DNA from: Sulfurisphaera ohwakuensis
GTDB lineage: Archaea > Thermoproteota > Thermoprotei_A > Sulfolobales > Sulfolobaceae
Length of the DNA stretch: 64,000 nucleotides
Assembly: GCF_009729055.1 (NCBI RefSeq)
Contig: NZ_CP045484.1
Location: forward strand, 62,001-126,000
Direction: 5' to 3'
In this document: positions 52,346 through 58,760 of the stretch, piece by piece
How the letters are laid out: each line of letters opens with the position of its first letter
How positions within the stretch are numbered: position 1 is the first letter of the stretch
Notes under the pieces: generated by a model
Told to the model about the DNA's origin: nothing
The model's database searches: none
Seen by the model: the letters and a program-made list of their open reading frames with translations, nothing else
Position numbers and translations under genes: made by a program

Positions 52346-53683
52346 ATGAAGTATAGCGCAGAAGAAATAATAGAAGTATATCAAATGCTTAACGAGGAGG
52401 ATCTAGATATTCGTTCAGTAACTCTGAGTATTAACACACTCTTCGCAATATCAGATGATTTAGATAAATCATTAAAGAAGTTAGAAGAGATTAATAATTT
52501 TCTAGAAAAATTTTCAAAAATCGTAGATGAAGTAGGAAGTAAATATGGAATCAGAATTGTTACTAAAAGAGTATCTGTATCCCCAATTCAGTTCTTCCTT
52601 GAAGTGCTAGATGAAAAAGACGGAATAGAATTAGCTAAATATCTAGATAGAATAGCTGAAAGAAATAACATAGATTATATAAGTGGTTATTCAGCTTTTG
52701 CAGATAAAGGATTTACTAGAGGATCCTTAAGAGTTCTTAAAACCTTAACAGATGCACTGAACAAGACTAAAAGACTAACTGGAATGATTAACGCTGCATC
52801 TACGATGTCTGGAATGAATATCGATGCAATAAAGATCTTTGTAGACCGAATATTCGAAATGCCACCAGAATCCTCATCAAGGACAGCTATAATGTCTAAT
52901 GTTCCTCCAGATTCGCCTTTTGTACCTTCAGCTCACCACGGTATGGGAATGCCAGAGGCTACAATAAATGTAGCTGTAAGCGGACCAGGAGTAATTAAAG
53001 CCGCTATTGAAAGAAGTAAACCTAAGACTTTACAAGAACTCCATGACATAATAAAGAGGGCAGCATTTAAGATTACTAGACTCGGTGAACTAGTAGGAAG
53101 AACTGTAGCTGAAAACATGGGGATAAATTTTACAACTGTTGATTTATCATTGGCCCCCTCACCTAAAGTAGGAGATAGTGTTGCGGAAATTATAGAGACG
53201 ATGGGGATAGAAAAGATAGGCGGACACGGCTCATTGGCTGCATTAGCTATTTTAATGGACGCTGTAAAGAAGGGAGGAGCTATGGCCACATCCTCAGTTG
53301 GCGGTCTCAGTAGTGCGTTTATTCCGGTAAGTGAAGATGCTGTAATGTCTGAGAGATCATTAGAGGGATATGTAGATTTTTACACTCTTATAGCGTTATC
53401 CTCTGTATGTAATAGTGGCATAGATATGGTAGGAGTAAGCAAGTCACAAGGGAAGGATAAGGTAATAGGACTAATTTCAGACATCTTAGCATTAGGAATA
53501 TCCTTAAACAAAATCCTTGGAGCTAGAATAATACCCATCGACTCACCACCAGGAAGTTATATAGATCTTGGAGGACTTCTGGGTAAGATAGTAGTTATGA
53601 AATTAAAGGACGTCAATGTATCAAAGTTTACTTCATATAAAGGTTTCATACCCAGTACTGTAAAAAGGCTGGAATTAGGGTAA
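52346..53683 (+). CDS. DUF711/UPF0210 family protein
   Basis: 445 residues. Conserved blocks: [70 protein letters not shown] and [16 protein letters not shown]. This is the UPF0210 family with a glycyl-radical-enzyme-like barrel and no known function. It is directly coupled to the ACT gene, a pairing found in many bacteria and archaea. Confidence 0.9.
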
Positions 53684-54729
53684 CATAATAAGTTTCTTTA
53701 TATTTAAGAATAACCACACGTGGCGTTGTCTAAGATGATAAAAATGGAAATTGATGAGTAATATTAATAAGTTATTGGGTTGAGATAATATTATGATAAA
53801 GACATTTATCAGTTAGAAAGTTTTCGTGATAGATAAAGAATTTTGTTGGGATATAAGCGAGATAAACTTCAATTATTCCCATAGCATATAATTTTTATAA
53901 TATGAAATAATATGAGTACAGTAATTTTTCATTTTTGCTTTATTTTTCTCGGTTTGTTGGATTTTTAATTCAAAATATTTCAAGAATTCATGTTCTTATG
54001 AGTAATTATCTTTATACTCAAATATAAATTTATTCAATTATTTACATTTTGAACATCGTCACGTATCCAGTTTTAAACTTAGTTACTTATCATAAAGAAT
54101 TTTTGTCTTCTACTTTTAAATTTTCAAATAAACATTATATTGGTATCTCGATTTAAAGCTTTCTTAAAGAAAAGAGACTTTATCTAAATACGGTTTTTAT
54201 AGATACTCTAAGCAGCAAAATCTAGGATATTAAGAGAGAATCCTAGGAGTTATATAAAAAACAGAAAAGGATAAAGGTTATAACGTAACGGGAAAAATTT
54301 TAAAAACTCTAGAACTTAATGTTTTTAAAAACTATTATTGAAAGCTGATTTTTATCTTAAACCAGTAAATCTTAACTTTTGACATTAAACAAAGAATAGA
54401 TACTAATGGAATCCTTTATTAGCAATTTTCTAGTAAGTGCTAATTAGACATATCAACCTAATACATTAAAAAAGAGAAATGTATTACTACTAGAGTTAGA
54501 TTAGCTAACACACATATTAAGAGAACAGCTCAATACGAAAAGTGTAATAGAAACTAATCATATGTATATTAGCACGATCACAAAAAAGCTCATTAAATAA
54601 ACTGACTGTATAATTAGTCATTTTAAAGCACTAGCTAATCTAAGTTTATCAATGTAAAATATCACTAATCTCTCCTAGCATAAATTACATTTTTACATAG
54701 AATTTAATGATGATGTATTTACTAAAATC
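53684..54729. other. Long gene-poor region at the left border of the accessory block
   Basis: About 1,050 AT-rich bases. Apart from the inverted-repeat copy at 53711-53797, no gene, tRNA or RNA box set is recognisable; all frames are short. Fragments such as the pair of TTTTTAAAAACT motifs around 54300-54335 do not form a clear array. It may be decayed element or host DNA. Confidence 0.6.
53711..53797 (+). repeat. Inverted repeat copy A (partner at 55817-55902)
   Basis: Includes 32 bases (53732-53763) identical in reverse complement to 55851-55882, with lower similarity on both sides over about 87 bases. A 13-residue frame (53720-53761, GTG start) ends MIKMEIDE. In the other copy the same frame is open for 24 codons, so the repeat may derive from the end of a small gene. 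Confidence 0.8.
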
Positions 54730-55338
54730 TTAATATGGTGGCTGATAACCACCACCGAACCCACCACTGGGATTACCATATGATCCTCCTCCAAACATAC
54801 CACCTTGTGCTGGTGGAGCATTAGCTACTATTTGAGCAATATAATTAAGTAACTGATCCTCGTTAGTATATTGCTGGTAAACATGATATGCATCAAAGGC
54901 TGCTCCACCTATTCCCAAGATTGTTAGCAATTTGTTATGTAACATCTCATCACTAAAGAATGAAAAACCTCCGCTCATAGCCAATGGAATTAGATCTTGG
55001 ATCCAATTTGCTACACCAGTTTCAATAGTCACCATTCCCGGTCCTTGGCATATTCTTATTGTATAGGCCTTATTTGCGTCAGTTAAAAATCCAAACAAGC
55101 TAGAATGCCTAGCTTGTATAACAACCATATTTTGACTTATCATAGGATTTACTTGAAATCCCATTCCATTTAAGTATGATACCACTTGTTGACCTACGTA
55201 TTGCATATTTATAGGATATGATACTGGTACTGTTATTGTCTTTCCACCTAGTCCTACAAGACCTCCACATAGTGCTGAACCAAATGGAGGTTGTTGTCCA
55301 AAGAATGGAAATCCCATATCCATTATATTTAATTCCAA
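54730..55338 (-). CDS. Conserved hypothetical protein with Gly/Pro-rich tail
   Basis: 202 residues (start at MELNIMDMGF or the ATG six codons later). An ordered body with KTITVPVSYPINMQYVGQQV and a helical segment about 110-160 is followed by a disordered tail rich in Gly, Pro and Tyr (MFGGGSYGNPSGGFGGGY). No signal peptide. It sits inside the inverted repeat pair. A TATATATA-rich promoter is upstream. Probably Sulfolobales-specific; function unknown and origin (host or element) unclear. Confidence 0.65.
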   Translation of the reverse strand: MELNIMDMGFPFFGQQPPFGSALCGGLVGLGGKTITVPVSYPINMQYVGQQVVSYLNGMGFQVNPMISQNMVVIQARHSSLFGFLTDANKAYTIRICQGPGMVTIETGVANWIQDLIPLAMSGGFSFFSDEMLHNKLLTILGIGGAAFDAYHVYQQYTNEDQLLNYIAQIVANAPPAQGGMFGGGSYGNPSGGFGGGYQPPY

Positions 55339-55484
55339 ATATATATATTTAGATTCTATTAAGTATGTACATAGTTCTTCTGTGTCTATTTCAGTTTTTA
55401 ATTCTAAGAAACATACGGCTTGATAAATACTCTATCCTCTCATTAGTTCCAAATAGAACAAGGGAGGGATCTGCAGTTTTTTAA

Positions 55485-55712
55485 ATCATATACCATAATA
55501 ATCAAATTACGAAAAAAGTTTTCACATTTAATGATATCAAAATTCGTGAAGTCAAAGGCAAGTATTATGTTTACTTACTAGAGAAGGATAAAGACTGTCA
55601 GAGAAGGGACCGTTATGTGGATAAGCTTAAAGACGTAGTAAAGTTCTATATTAGTAGTGGAGGTCTGTGGACCCGTAGGTCCCGGGTTCAAGTCCCGGCC
55701 AGAGCCTTGTGA
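55485..55712 (+). pseudogene. Integrase N-terminal relic carrying the tRNA-His 3' half
   Basis: The frame has no start codon. Translated, it holds FNDIKIREVKGKYYVYLLEK and YVDKLKDVVKFY, the same pattern as the integrase at 58.5 kb ([22 protein letters not shown]) but clearly divergent. It then runs through a 36-base exact copy of the tRNA-His 3' half in the sense direction ([13 protein letters not shown]) and stops. The 58.5 kb copy reads tRNA-His antisense, so this came from a different element or an inverted arrangement. Confidence 0.75.
55665..55700 (+). other. tRNA-His 3'-half fragment (attachment-site remnant)
   Basis: 36 bases identical to bases 58706-58671 of tRNA-His (minus strand), from the anticodon loop (CTGTGGA) through the T arm. 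It lacks the 5' half and the acceptor end differs (AGAGCC instead of CGAGCC). A partial tRNA of this kind is what an SSV-type integration leaves at one end of the element, but here it is inverted relative to the intact gene. Confidence 0.85.
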
Positions 55713-55980
55713 GGGATATCCCACACACCCTTACCGCTAATATAGAATTCTACAATCTTATCTAAGGGGCCCTTTAACCATCTTTAAAAAAGCAAGTCTT
55801 TTTCAGTTGAAATTACCTTTACCATAAATCTCATCCCAATTACTTATTAGTATTACTCATCAATTTCCATTTTTATCATCTTGGATAACATCACGTGGTA
55901 ATACACGGTCTCCCTCACCTTAAGCATTTCTTCAATTTATTGAATTTCTAATATTGTTATAATAAATTCCTTTATCTTTC
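55713..55980. other. Spacer between integrase relic and element genes
   Basis: Contains inverted repeat copy B and a 24-codon minus-strand frame (55853-55927; starts MLKVRETVYYHVML and ends MIKMEIDE). No other gene is seen; a T-rich run near 55960-55980 follows the stop of the next minus-strand gene. Confidence 0.5.
55817..55902 (-). repeat. Inverted repeat copy B (partner at 53711-53797)
   Basis: Reverse complement of the left copy with a 32-base identical core at 55851-55882. In the shared frame the two copies differ at codons 2 to 4, two of these changes being synonymous (TTG/TTA, TCT/TCC). That is weak evidence that the sequence was once translated. Confidence 0.8.
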
Positions 55981-56322
55981 TTAGAAAGATATTATTCTAT
56001 CAGAATTTTTGCAAAACGATTTTAGCTCTACCGTACTCAGCGAGAGAGAAACGTTGTTATCTTCATATTCCGCATTGGGCAAAACTTGAAGGTAGTATTT
56101 ATCATAGACGCTTACGTATGAGGGGTTAAGCCAAGGAGCCGTTGAAAGAGCGGAACCGTTTTGAGTCTCTCTGACAATCTGCGTCGATGAAGGCTGAATA
56201 ACAATAGTTTGTGAGTATTTGTAGTATGAAAAATCTCCGCCTCCTCTAAACCTATAAAACGCTGAAGATGGTAAGAGAAAAATGGGTAGGATAAGTAGGG
56301 TTAGGAGTAGGAGCCACTTCAT
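55981..56322 (-). CDS. Secreted or membrane-anchored element protein
   Basis: 113 residues. Signal peptide MKWLLLLTLLILPIFLLPSSA, then a mature part with no recognised domain. A TATTTAAAC box lies about 28 bases upstream, so leaderless. The right-hand neighbours on the same strand are likewise exported. The C-terminus may be truncated where the repeat region begins. Base composition is visibly richer in GC than the host genes around it. Confidence 0.55.
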   Translation of the reverse strand: MKWLLLLTLLILPIFLLPSSAFYRFRGGGDFSYYKYSQTIVIQPSSTQIVRETQNGSALSTAPWLNPSYVSVYDKYYLQVLPNAEYEDNNVSLSLSTVELKSFCKNSDRIISF

Positions 56323-56363
56323 TAAGTGAGAAAAAAGAGAGTGAGTTTAAATAGGGCCTATTT

Positions 56364-56717
56364 TTACTCCTCTTCATCCGGTCTGTGTATTTTGAAGGGG
56401 CTTAGCTCCTCCTCTTGCCAACCGAATTCATAATCGTACCACTTCTTGTAAAGAGTCTTTATACCGTAGTAAAGCTCTTTATACCAAGTTATGAGTAAAA
56501 GTCCTAACCCGATAACTAGTGTTTCCGGCCATAGGTTTGCATACCATGGTGGAGGGGCATAATAACCCGTAGGAGCACAACTTACAAGTGGGTTTGAGCA
56601 TATGGGTGGGGGAGGTAACTGAACCCAAGTTGAGTGGTCTATTGAGTGTAGGTAAGCTGTTAACCCTAGAAGTACCGTGGAAGAACCGGTTAGGACTAAC
56701 TTCTTGTCTTTCATCAT
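56364..56717 (-). CDS. Two-helix membrane protein with proline-rich loop
   Basis: 117 residues from the ATG pair at 56715-56717, about 28 bases after a CTTTATAAGT box; the frame is open further upstream into the next gene but that start is less likely. Helices at about 5-23 and 61-81 flank an exposed loop with PPPPICSNP and APPPWYAN. The tail is acidic (HRPDEEE). This resembles small structural or accessory proteins of Sulfolobus viruses and plasmids in style; no homologue is named. Confidence 0.55.
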   Translation of the reverse strand: MMKDKKLVLTGSSTVLLGLTAYLHSIDHSTWVQLPPPPICSNPLVSCAPTGYYAPPPWYANLWPETLVIGLGLLLITWYKELYYGIKTLYKKWYDYEFGWQEEELSPFKIHRPDEEE

Positions 56718-56754
56718 TAAAAACAAATAAAAAAGGTTTAACTTATAAAGGTTT

Positions 56755-57857
56755 TCACAAGACGTATTCAAAACCGTAGCTAGGTATCGCAATATCGCTT
56801 TGTGTGCTAGTAACTAAGCTGACAAACGGGTGACCGCCTAACTGGTTCACCGGCAAACCATTTATTTGTGCATAAGCTTCGATACCTTGCTGAGTTCCTA
56901 GCATCCAGTAAGAGACATTATAGTAATAAGTAACATATACTACACGACCGTACATATGTTCTGATTGTTTTCCGATATATTCGCTCGCACCCCACGCTAC
57001 ACCGGAAGGCGGTGGGTTTAAGCCAATCATAGTCCCTGAAACAGCACTGGAACTAGCTGAATCTGAAGATATTAAGTTCTGTCCGTACCACGGTGCCTGA
57101 TATTCTTCATATCTGGTTCCGTTTAGTATAATTAGTTGGAATAATGTAACAAAGTACGGGTTAGAGTCAGTAAAAGAGTATTGGGACGGCGCATGAACTT
57201 CTACAGAGACACTCGGGTAAGCTATACCTTGACCGCTAACACTCTTGAGTAACACTGAGCTAGCTGTGCTAGGAACTGTGTTAAATGTTAAAGCGCAATT
57301 ATTATTAAATACAATTTTCTCGCCGGGGTAGATCGGAGTACCGGGGAAGTTGAACCCTTGCCCGTTATAACCAAATATAGCATACCAAGTACTACCTTCA
57401 CTTAATGCTGTAATTACAAAACTACTTTGAGGGTTGTAAGGTACTTGTTCTAAAATAGGGGGTAATGTAATGTATTGAGGAATAGGAAAACCATTAACAA
57501 TTTCAGTATAGTTTACGATGATATCGGTCTCTATTACAGAAACTCCGTTAACAACATATGTCAGTACTAACTGGAGTATAATTCCGTCAAACGGATATGA
57601 TGTCCGTTAATTGTTAATGTCCCCGTCGCTTGTAACGGTATGTTTAGCATTTCTAACACAGTGTAGAACCCGCTATCGTTCAATGCGAAGTAAGAGAAGC
57701 TAGAGAAATAAACCATATAATAACTATACCCCGCTAAGTTCGAATTGTATGCCGAAATCGCCCAATCGTATCCGCTTATTTGTGCCGACGGTAGTATGCT
57801 TAATGCTGGGATTAGTAGTAGTGTTAGAAAGGTTAGGGAAAGTAGGGGCTTCCACAT
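56755..57857 (-). pseudogene. Frameshifted secreted glycoprotein-like gene of the element
   Basis: Two frames join to about 368 residues. The first part (57857 down to about 57604) has signal peptide MWKPLLSLTFLTLLLIPALS and a Ser/Tyr-rich start; the second part continues to 56755 (VSVEVHAPSQYSF, GTRYEEYQAPWYG, MYGRVVYVTYYYNVS). Restoring one base near 57603-57605 would read ING-TSYPFDG, adding an N-glycosylation site and continuing smoothly. Many N-x-S/T sites and Tyr suggest an exposed surface protein. A TTTTAAAG box precedes the ATG. Either a real pseudogene or a sequencing error. Confidence 0.65.
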
Positions 57858-57892
57858 TTGCCGAGAAGAGAGAATTAGACTTTAAAAGGGGC

Positions 57893-58117
57893 TCAAGACA
57901 CGCAGATATTATGTTTTTTGCAAACATGGTCTAGGAGTGCATCCGTGTTTGCGAACTCCTTTCTGCACACCGGACAAGTTGTCGTATGCTCAGCATAACG
58001 TATGTGCTGTTTGAGAGAGACGGAAGAGCTGAAGGGCATTAGGCATAACGGGCAAACGTAAGGGGAAACTGCTTTACTTGTCAACAACTTATAGAGATAA
58101 CTACTTTCATCCAACAA
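57893..58117 (-). CDS. Double C2H2 zinc-finger protein of virus/plasmid type
   Basis: 74 residues. Finger 1: CPLCLMPFSSSVSLKQHIRYAEH; finger 2: CPVCRKEFANTDALLDHVCKKH, both with classic spacing. Small C2H2 proteins like this are common in Sulfolobus fuselloviruses and plasmids, where they act as regulators. The start is TTG (TTG-TTG-GAT). It is the best single piece of evidence that the 56-58 kb block is of viral or plasmid origin. Confidence 0.8.
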   Translation of the reverse strand: MLDESSYLYKLLTSKAVSPYVCPLCLMPFSSSVSLKQHIRYAEHTTTCPVCRKEFANTDALLDHVCKKHNICVS

Positions 58118-58155
58118 CTTTAGATTATGGATTAACGCTTTAACGATTGCCCTTA

Positions 58156-58269
58156 TTAATCTTTTCTGTTCCGGCCGAGAGAATAATAATGTTCAAGTTC
58201 CTCTAAAGTTACATGAATCGTAATTCCTTTATGATTACTCAAGTACTCTTTACTGCCTGACCCTGCCAA
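58156..58269 (-). CDS. 37-residue frame upstream of the zinc finger
   Basis: Begins at a TTG directly after an in-frame stop: AGSGSKEYLSNHKGITIHVT, then LEELEHYYSLGRNRKD. The composition is protein-like (helix LEELEHYYSLGR), but the start is weak and it may be the remaining C-terminus of a decayed element gene. No family recognised. Confidence 0.4.
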   Translation of the reverse strand: MAGSGSKEYLSNHKGITIHVTLEELEHYYSLGRNRKD

Positions 58270-58457
58270 TTAATTAGGAGATGCTGAGAAATTTCCAAGT
58301 TATATGTTTAAAAGAGATTCCCTTGAACAAATGTATATATCTCAGGGATGCAGAATCTTTGCCGTCTTCTTTCAACTCTACGCGTTTTTACGGTAAAAAT
58401 TAACGGGTTGCAAAAGCTTATGAACACAAATTGGCAACCATAATACAGTGAGGAGTT

Positions 58458-58760
58458 TTGGCGGATAAGCAACGTAGATATAAATTCGGCGATTATATCT
58501 TAAGGGAAAGAAAAGGTCGGTATTATGTCTATAAATTGGAAACGATGAATGGTGACGCAAAGGAAACTTACGTGGGTCCCTTAATCGACGTCGTTGAGAC
58601 TTATCTAAAATTGAAAGAAAGTGGGGGTGTGGGGGTGTCCCCCACTGGGGGTTTCCCCCTAAAGGGCTCGGGCCGGGACTTGAACCCGGGACCTACGGGT
58701 CCACAGCCCGTCGCTCTAACCAGGCTGAGCTACCCGAGCCAATCCCATTATTATTTCTAA
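58458..58760 (+). pseudogene. SSV-type integrase N-terminal fragment overlapping tRNA-His
   Basis: About 100 residues, TTG start after GTGAGGAG. The sequence [24 protein letters not shown] and [18 protein letters not shown] is the N-terminal domain of archaeal partitioned tyrosine recombinases; then it reads through tRNA-His antisense ([19 protein letters not shown]) and ends. The catalytic C-terminal domain is absent. This is int(N), the half left beside the tRNA when an element integrates; the matching int(C) is not in the window. Confidence 0.85.
58664..58740 (-). tRNA. tRNA-His (GTG anticodon)
   Basis: Acceptor GGCTCGG/CCGAGCC with discriminator C at 58664, as required for His. D arm GCTC/GAGC, anticodon stem ACGGG/CCCGT with loop CTGTGGA, T arm CCGGG TTCAAGT CCCGG. 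No intron. The G at position -1 is not encoded (T there), so it would have to be added after transcription. It is an integration target: int(N) overlaps it. Confidence 0.94.

Follow-up and report, generated by a model that had tools for sequence, protein, structure and literature searches.

Among the closest described counterparts of the DNA analysed here are the MITEs of Sulfolobus (SM1-SM4, SM3A and SMN1), which in the sections available of the sources are short and non-coding, have inverted ends and a short target duplication, and rely on a related transposase that acts in trans (PMC3718332, PMC10969869). The same portion of the first source gives SM3A as 164 bp with ISC1058 as parent family, and SMN1 as 320 bp with ISC1733 as parent family (PMC3718332). 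A second point of reference is the ISC1212 group of the IS5 family, found in Saccharolobus; ISC1212 and ISC1236 are described, in the available part of the source, as sharing weak similarity with other IS5 elements (PMC3852290). A third is provided by the relics of SSV-type (suicidal) fuselloviral integrases in tRNA genes (PMC8371274). All three bear on an inverted pair of sequences in a 64,000-nt stretch of the Sulfurisphaera ohwakuensis genome (NZ_CP045484.1 62,001-126,000, forward strand), hereafter the window, to whose numbering all coordinates refer. We are highly confident that each of the two copies is the left terminus of a single IS5-type, ISC1212-like family, and that they were brought in by two independent insertions facing each other by chance, the left one a MITE and the right one a truncated IS.

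The pair itself, with its 32-base perfect core and separation of about 2.1 kb, was recovered both by a repeat search of the window and by alignments of the two copies. The search delimits arms at 53717-53786 and 55828-55897 (70 nt, gapless, 90% complementary, with a spacer of 2041 nt), and a gapped alignment over about 85 nt gives 86.4% identity (81 columns). The window contains 32 inverted 20-mer pairs, compared with a mean of 0.0 over 10 first-order Markov resamplings, and a chance origin is thereby excluded. The element ends lie at 53722 in the left copy and 55892 in the right copy, with ACGT immediately outside each, and both copies are the left terminus of a single IS family. The size of roughly 87 bases given in the preliminary description does not stand, as the homology between the right copy and the IS extends through 125 bp (55772-55896, ACGT included) and the left is the end of a 339-bp element. 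The left copy is 86.9% identical to an IS elsewhere in the same genome (L002) and the right copy 87.7% identical to an IS in another genome (L079 in G018); neither is thus more similar to its partner in the pair than to a full IS at another place, which argues against local duplication. A 101-base repeat query detects eight places in the genome, both window copies included, so that single copies with no inverted partner exist, an arrangement at odds with a paired unit. A 354-base query detects 14 places in the genome, with matches in three of the four genus genomes and 11 of 31 family genomes, and the exact repeat pattern had no match in genome-contig and viral-contig collections, which may omit records near the window.

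Table 1. Features in and around the inverted pair (window coordinates).
Feature	Position	Strand	Basis or remark
Left ACGT target-site duplication of the MITE	53718..53721	.	ATGT, one copy only, in G003 and G002
339-bp MITE, left end being the left repeat	53722..54060	+	Ends, relatives and, in G003 and G002, the empty site
Right ACGT target-site duplication of the MITE	54061..54064	.	ACGT at both outer sides
Chromosomal DNA, in G003 and G002 directly adjoining the DNA left of the MITE	54072..54211	+	81% to G003 1596-1736
202-residue gene	54730..55338	-	Locus shared with G003, on the same strand, and with G002, on the opposite one
int(N)-like integrase relic 1	55470..55660	+	Reading frame; 55515-55622 83% DNA match to int(N)-like ORF in G002
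Inverted tRNA-His fragment, ~nt 31-75	55662..55706	+	Compared with tRNA-His 58664-58739
int(N)-like integrase relic 2 (GPLDKIVEFYISGKG), head to head with relic 1	55707..55771	-	Limits approximate
First 121 bp of the IS (right repeat)	55772..55892	-	Transposase start MVKVISTEKDL from ~55825
ACGT target bordering the IS fragment on its outer side, within host sequence CACGTGGTAATAC	55893..55896	.	
Second-IS-family fragment hosting the first IS	55893..56025	+	Upstream sequence of 343-aa transposase in G002; right limit approximate
Fuselloviral end-filament (VP4-like) gene, 5' part	56026..56322	-	phrog_6848, E 6e-27, residues 1-99 of 113-aa ORF
SSV-type int(N), overlapping tRNA-His 58664-58739 (-)	58458..58760	+	PF07935, E 4.7e-33

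The left repeat is one end of a complete MITE, a kind of element anticipated by the test proposed in the preliminary description, and this element has its own family right end at 54060. Its insertion can be read against two relatives, G003, which we take to be S. tokodaii, and G002. The alignment of the window with G003 ends at 53718 and that with G002 at 53713, and both restart at 54072 (the stretch 54072-54283 is 80% identical to G002); at the insertion point both relatives read a single ATGT, where the window reads ACGT twice. The single ATGT and the contiguous flanks identify an empty site and the element as a MITE. It is short, possesses both ends of its parent IS and no transposase gene, forms a discrete insertion and is multicopy. 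Near-full-length copies number three among the four genus genomes, namely that in the window, G000:C1:565520-565835 (80%) and G002:C1:1309320-1309664 (82%), and some match is present in three of the four. IS positions 1-165 and pieces of the right end match the MITE, for the right half of which a sibling IS remnant (L018) is the closer match. The 339-bp element is a new member of a MITE family, for which we found no match in plasmid and phage collections (these may omit records near the window) and no published description in the open-licence literature. It shares with the Sulfolobus MITEs the traits listed at the outset but differs from SM3A and SMN1 in length, SM1-SM4 being compared by description only, and in its parent family, which appears to be ISC1212-like. 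A shorter relative of about 157 bp, with both ends present, is found in G003 (C1:775057-775213; L033 1483-1639).

The right repeat is a different kind of insertion. Window positions 55896-55772 match IS positions 1-123 at 82%, ACGT included, and the start of the transposase encoded there, MVKVISTEKDL, corresponds to MVKAISTEKDLLL in an open copy of the IS in G018. The copy breaks off at about 55772, where it abuts an integrase relic. On its outer side, 55893-55982 has matches, some of them weak, at eight other places in the 21 genomes searched, and a longer match (to 56035) in G002 adjoins, upstream, a gene for a 343-aa transposase. Most aligned relatives of this host IS read C(A)CGTGGTAATAC uninterrupted at the insertion point, and thus the first IS inserted at ACGT within another IS. 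The right copy is without its other end, and ACGT is read there at the outer side only and not as a duplication pair; this palindromic tetranucleotide also borders other copies and at single copies could be part of the inverted repeat, a point that the empty site settles for the MITE alone.

Full copies of the IS, 1123 bp in length, are present at three places in the genome with different flanks, each time with the repeat as left end, ahead of the transposase start. Their inverted ends are GACGTTGTC.../...GACAACGTC or close variants, and terminal inverted repeats GACGTTGTCCAA.../...TTGGACAACGTC and close variants recur in the listed copies of the family. Among eight elements with a 4-bp target duplication, a listing restricted to pairs with at most one mismatch, the duplication is identical in four (the window MITE, L002, L071 and L072) and has one mismatch in the other four; the MITE relatives L006, L028 and L033 have no clear target duplication by eye. 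The transposase contains a DUF772 (Pfam) domain above cut-off (34.4 and 32.6 vs 23.1 bits, L002 being the own-genome copy tested), whereas the matches to the NCBIfam IS5 model (35.7 bits) and to DDE_Tnp_1 (14.3 bits) are below their cut-offs, of 140 and 23 bits, the former far below. The copies in G018, which is presumably a Saccharolobus, measure 1212/1213 bp, and this length, together with DUF772 and the weak IS5-model matches, fits the ISC1212 group. The family therefore resembles that group and is probably IS5-type, the name resting on length and description and serving as a lead. In contrast to ISC1212, which is known here by description and not by its ISfinder sequence, the own-genome copies are 1123 bp and broken. 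No intact transposase of the repeat-bearing family was found in the genus, plasmid collections (which may omit records near the window) gave no match, and none of 55 pattern matches in the genome-contig collection was confirmed. The three own-genome copies (L002, L003 and L004) have different flanks and about eleven further small deletions that are identical in all three; these common deletions would point either to sites prone to deletion or to the mobilisation in trans of an element already dead. Some of the deletions of L002-L004 recur in another genus (L070 and L077 in G015; L073 in G016).

A separate observation concerns how the transposase of this family is encoded. It lies in two overlapping frames (L096-L113, L079 and L002-L004, from G010, G018, G015 and G000) that are split at GGGAGAGAAAAAACGA, a conserved A6 run. 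Exact-pattern counts at this junction gave 28 six-A copies vs one seven-A copy, in six genomes from four genera, and the seven-A copy has a single uninterrupted frame of 318 codons. Both frames are long (at least 182 codons downstream and at least 108 upstream) in 13 of the 18 six-A copies fetched from three genomes, comprising all six in G010, seven of ten in G018 and neither of the two in G015; one further G018 copy has frames of 75 and 184 codons. The overlap between the two frames spans 79 nt in G010 and 40 nt in G018. A junction of this form at a conserved A6 run suggests frameshifting or slippage, and on the strength of the reading frames we give an even chance to the proposal that the family makes its transposase by recoding, in which a -1 frameshift or RNA-polymerase slippage at A6 would fuse the N-terminal (DUF772) and catalytic frames. 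In the parts available of two articles, IS5 is listed among the IS families that use frameshifting and other archaeal candidates are mentioned (PMC5009743), and a review counts a single reported case of -1 frameshifting in archaea by 2021 (PMC8211752). We found no description of a frame junction in ISC1212 in the open-licence literature.

The preliminary description had raised the possibility that the repeats border a mobile unit, which would be a composite one with the 202-residue gene and an integrase relic inside it. Both repeats are indeed outward-facing left ends bordered by ACGT, and that mobile DNA is involved is correct; however, the left copy belongs to an element that is closed, after 339 bp, by a right end and a duplication of its own, and the right flank of the right copy is ordinary sequence of another IS, so that each copy sits in an insertion of its own. 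Nor do the relatives offer an empty site for a composite spanning 53722-55892, as the left flank in G003 and G002 is contiguous with 54072 onward and not with the right flank. Neither repeat was found in the orthologous loci of G003 and G002, yet the 202-residue gene is at the locus in both, and it is thus not cargo of a repeat-bordered unit; we regard past movement of such a unit as very improbable, a future mobilisation of the block being conceivable. A relative of this gene is present in 27 of 31 family genomes, and its product has no Pfam or PHROG family and no match in plasmid and phage collections, which may omit records near the window. Marginally less improbable, although still highly unlikely, is the proposal that the inverted copies recombined homologously, turning round the 2.1 kb between them and so yielding the inverted tRNA fragment. 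Inverted repeats of this kind can recombine, and the tRNA-His fragment between the copies is inverted relative to the tRNA gene, but 54072-54211 and 54562-55360 are arranged and oriented as in G003, where both repeats are lacking. This colinearity means that the interval was not flipped by the repeats in this lineage. In G002, moreover, the 202-residue gene is inverted in the absence of either repeat. The inversion of the tRNA fragment is thus not explained by the repeats, and the variant of the recombination reading that remains is one in which an inversion confined to the right part may have involved another partner copy.

Two further readings concern what the repeats might encode. The frame ending in MIKMEIDE does occur in both copies, and exactly so in four others, as might be expected had a short peptide gene, or the final part of an older gene, been duplicated. 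The ending is exact in six of 15 left ends but altered or frame-shifted in the other nine, and in full IS copies the frame stops before the transposase start; the sequence belongs to the leader of the IS, ahead of the transposase, which leaves a peptide gene with very little credence. An origin of this frame as the C-terminus of an SSV-type integrase was also considered and dropped, since the full IS copies place the sequence upstream of the transposase start. Least probable, to the point of being negligible, is a structured RNA covering both copies: a search of 53500-56100 against Rfam, at E up to 1, returned three matches, all below the gathering score and none on the repeats. One of these, a Na+ riboswitch at 53955-54004, is inside the body of the MITE.

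Two insertions of one IS family therefore remain the preferred reading of the pair. The MITE is an internally deleted derivative of the IS family that kept the left and right ends, and it was inserted at an ACGT site, which was duplicated, presumably by a family transposase acting in trans; no active source of transposase for that time was seen among the genus copies. On the right, an autonomous-type copy of the IS inserted into ACGT in the second-IS fragment, within a decayed fusellovirus at tRNA-His, and was then truncated after 121 bp, in what is probably the order of events on this side, so that it now abuts the integrase relic. The interval between the repeats never moved as a unit.

The surroundings of the right copy resemble a known viral system. 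The stretch 55893-58760 represents a decayed fusellovirus at tRNA-His, with a phrog_6848 fragment, a B129-like zinc finger (phrog_9259) and an SSV-type int(N), and in the PF07935 int(N) and the att in the 3' half of tRNA-His it is like the integrase relics described above; the repeats are no part of that system, which is their context alone. Within 55470-55771, the two int(N)-like relics run into the inverted tRNA-His fragment from opposite sides. Compared with the window and G003, G002 carries the 202-residue gene at the same place in reversed orientation (L066 1939-2547), and the int(N) relic beside it is reversed as well, with the order kept, as would be expected had a circle been put back in the opposite direction; this inversion has a cause other than the repeats.

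Judging by the empty sites, the MITE inserted once this lineage had parted from a relative with 98% identity in the adjoining DNA. If confirmed, the two-frame transposase would be a testable case of recoding in archaea. As for the pair, a candidate mobile unit is removed and replaced by ordinary genome wear from insertions of a known kind, and the locus shows how such inverted pairs originate, with IS ends gathering around an integrated virus.
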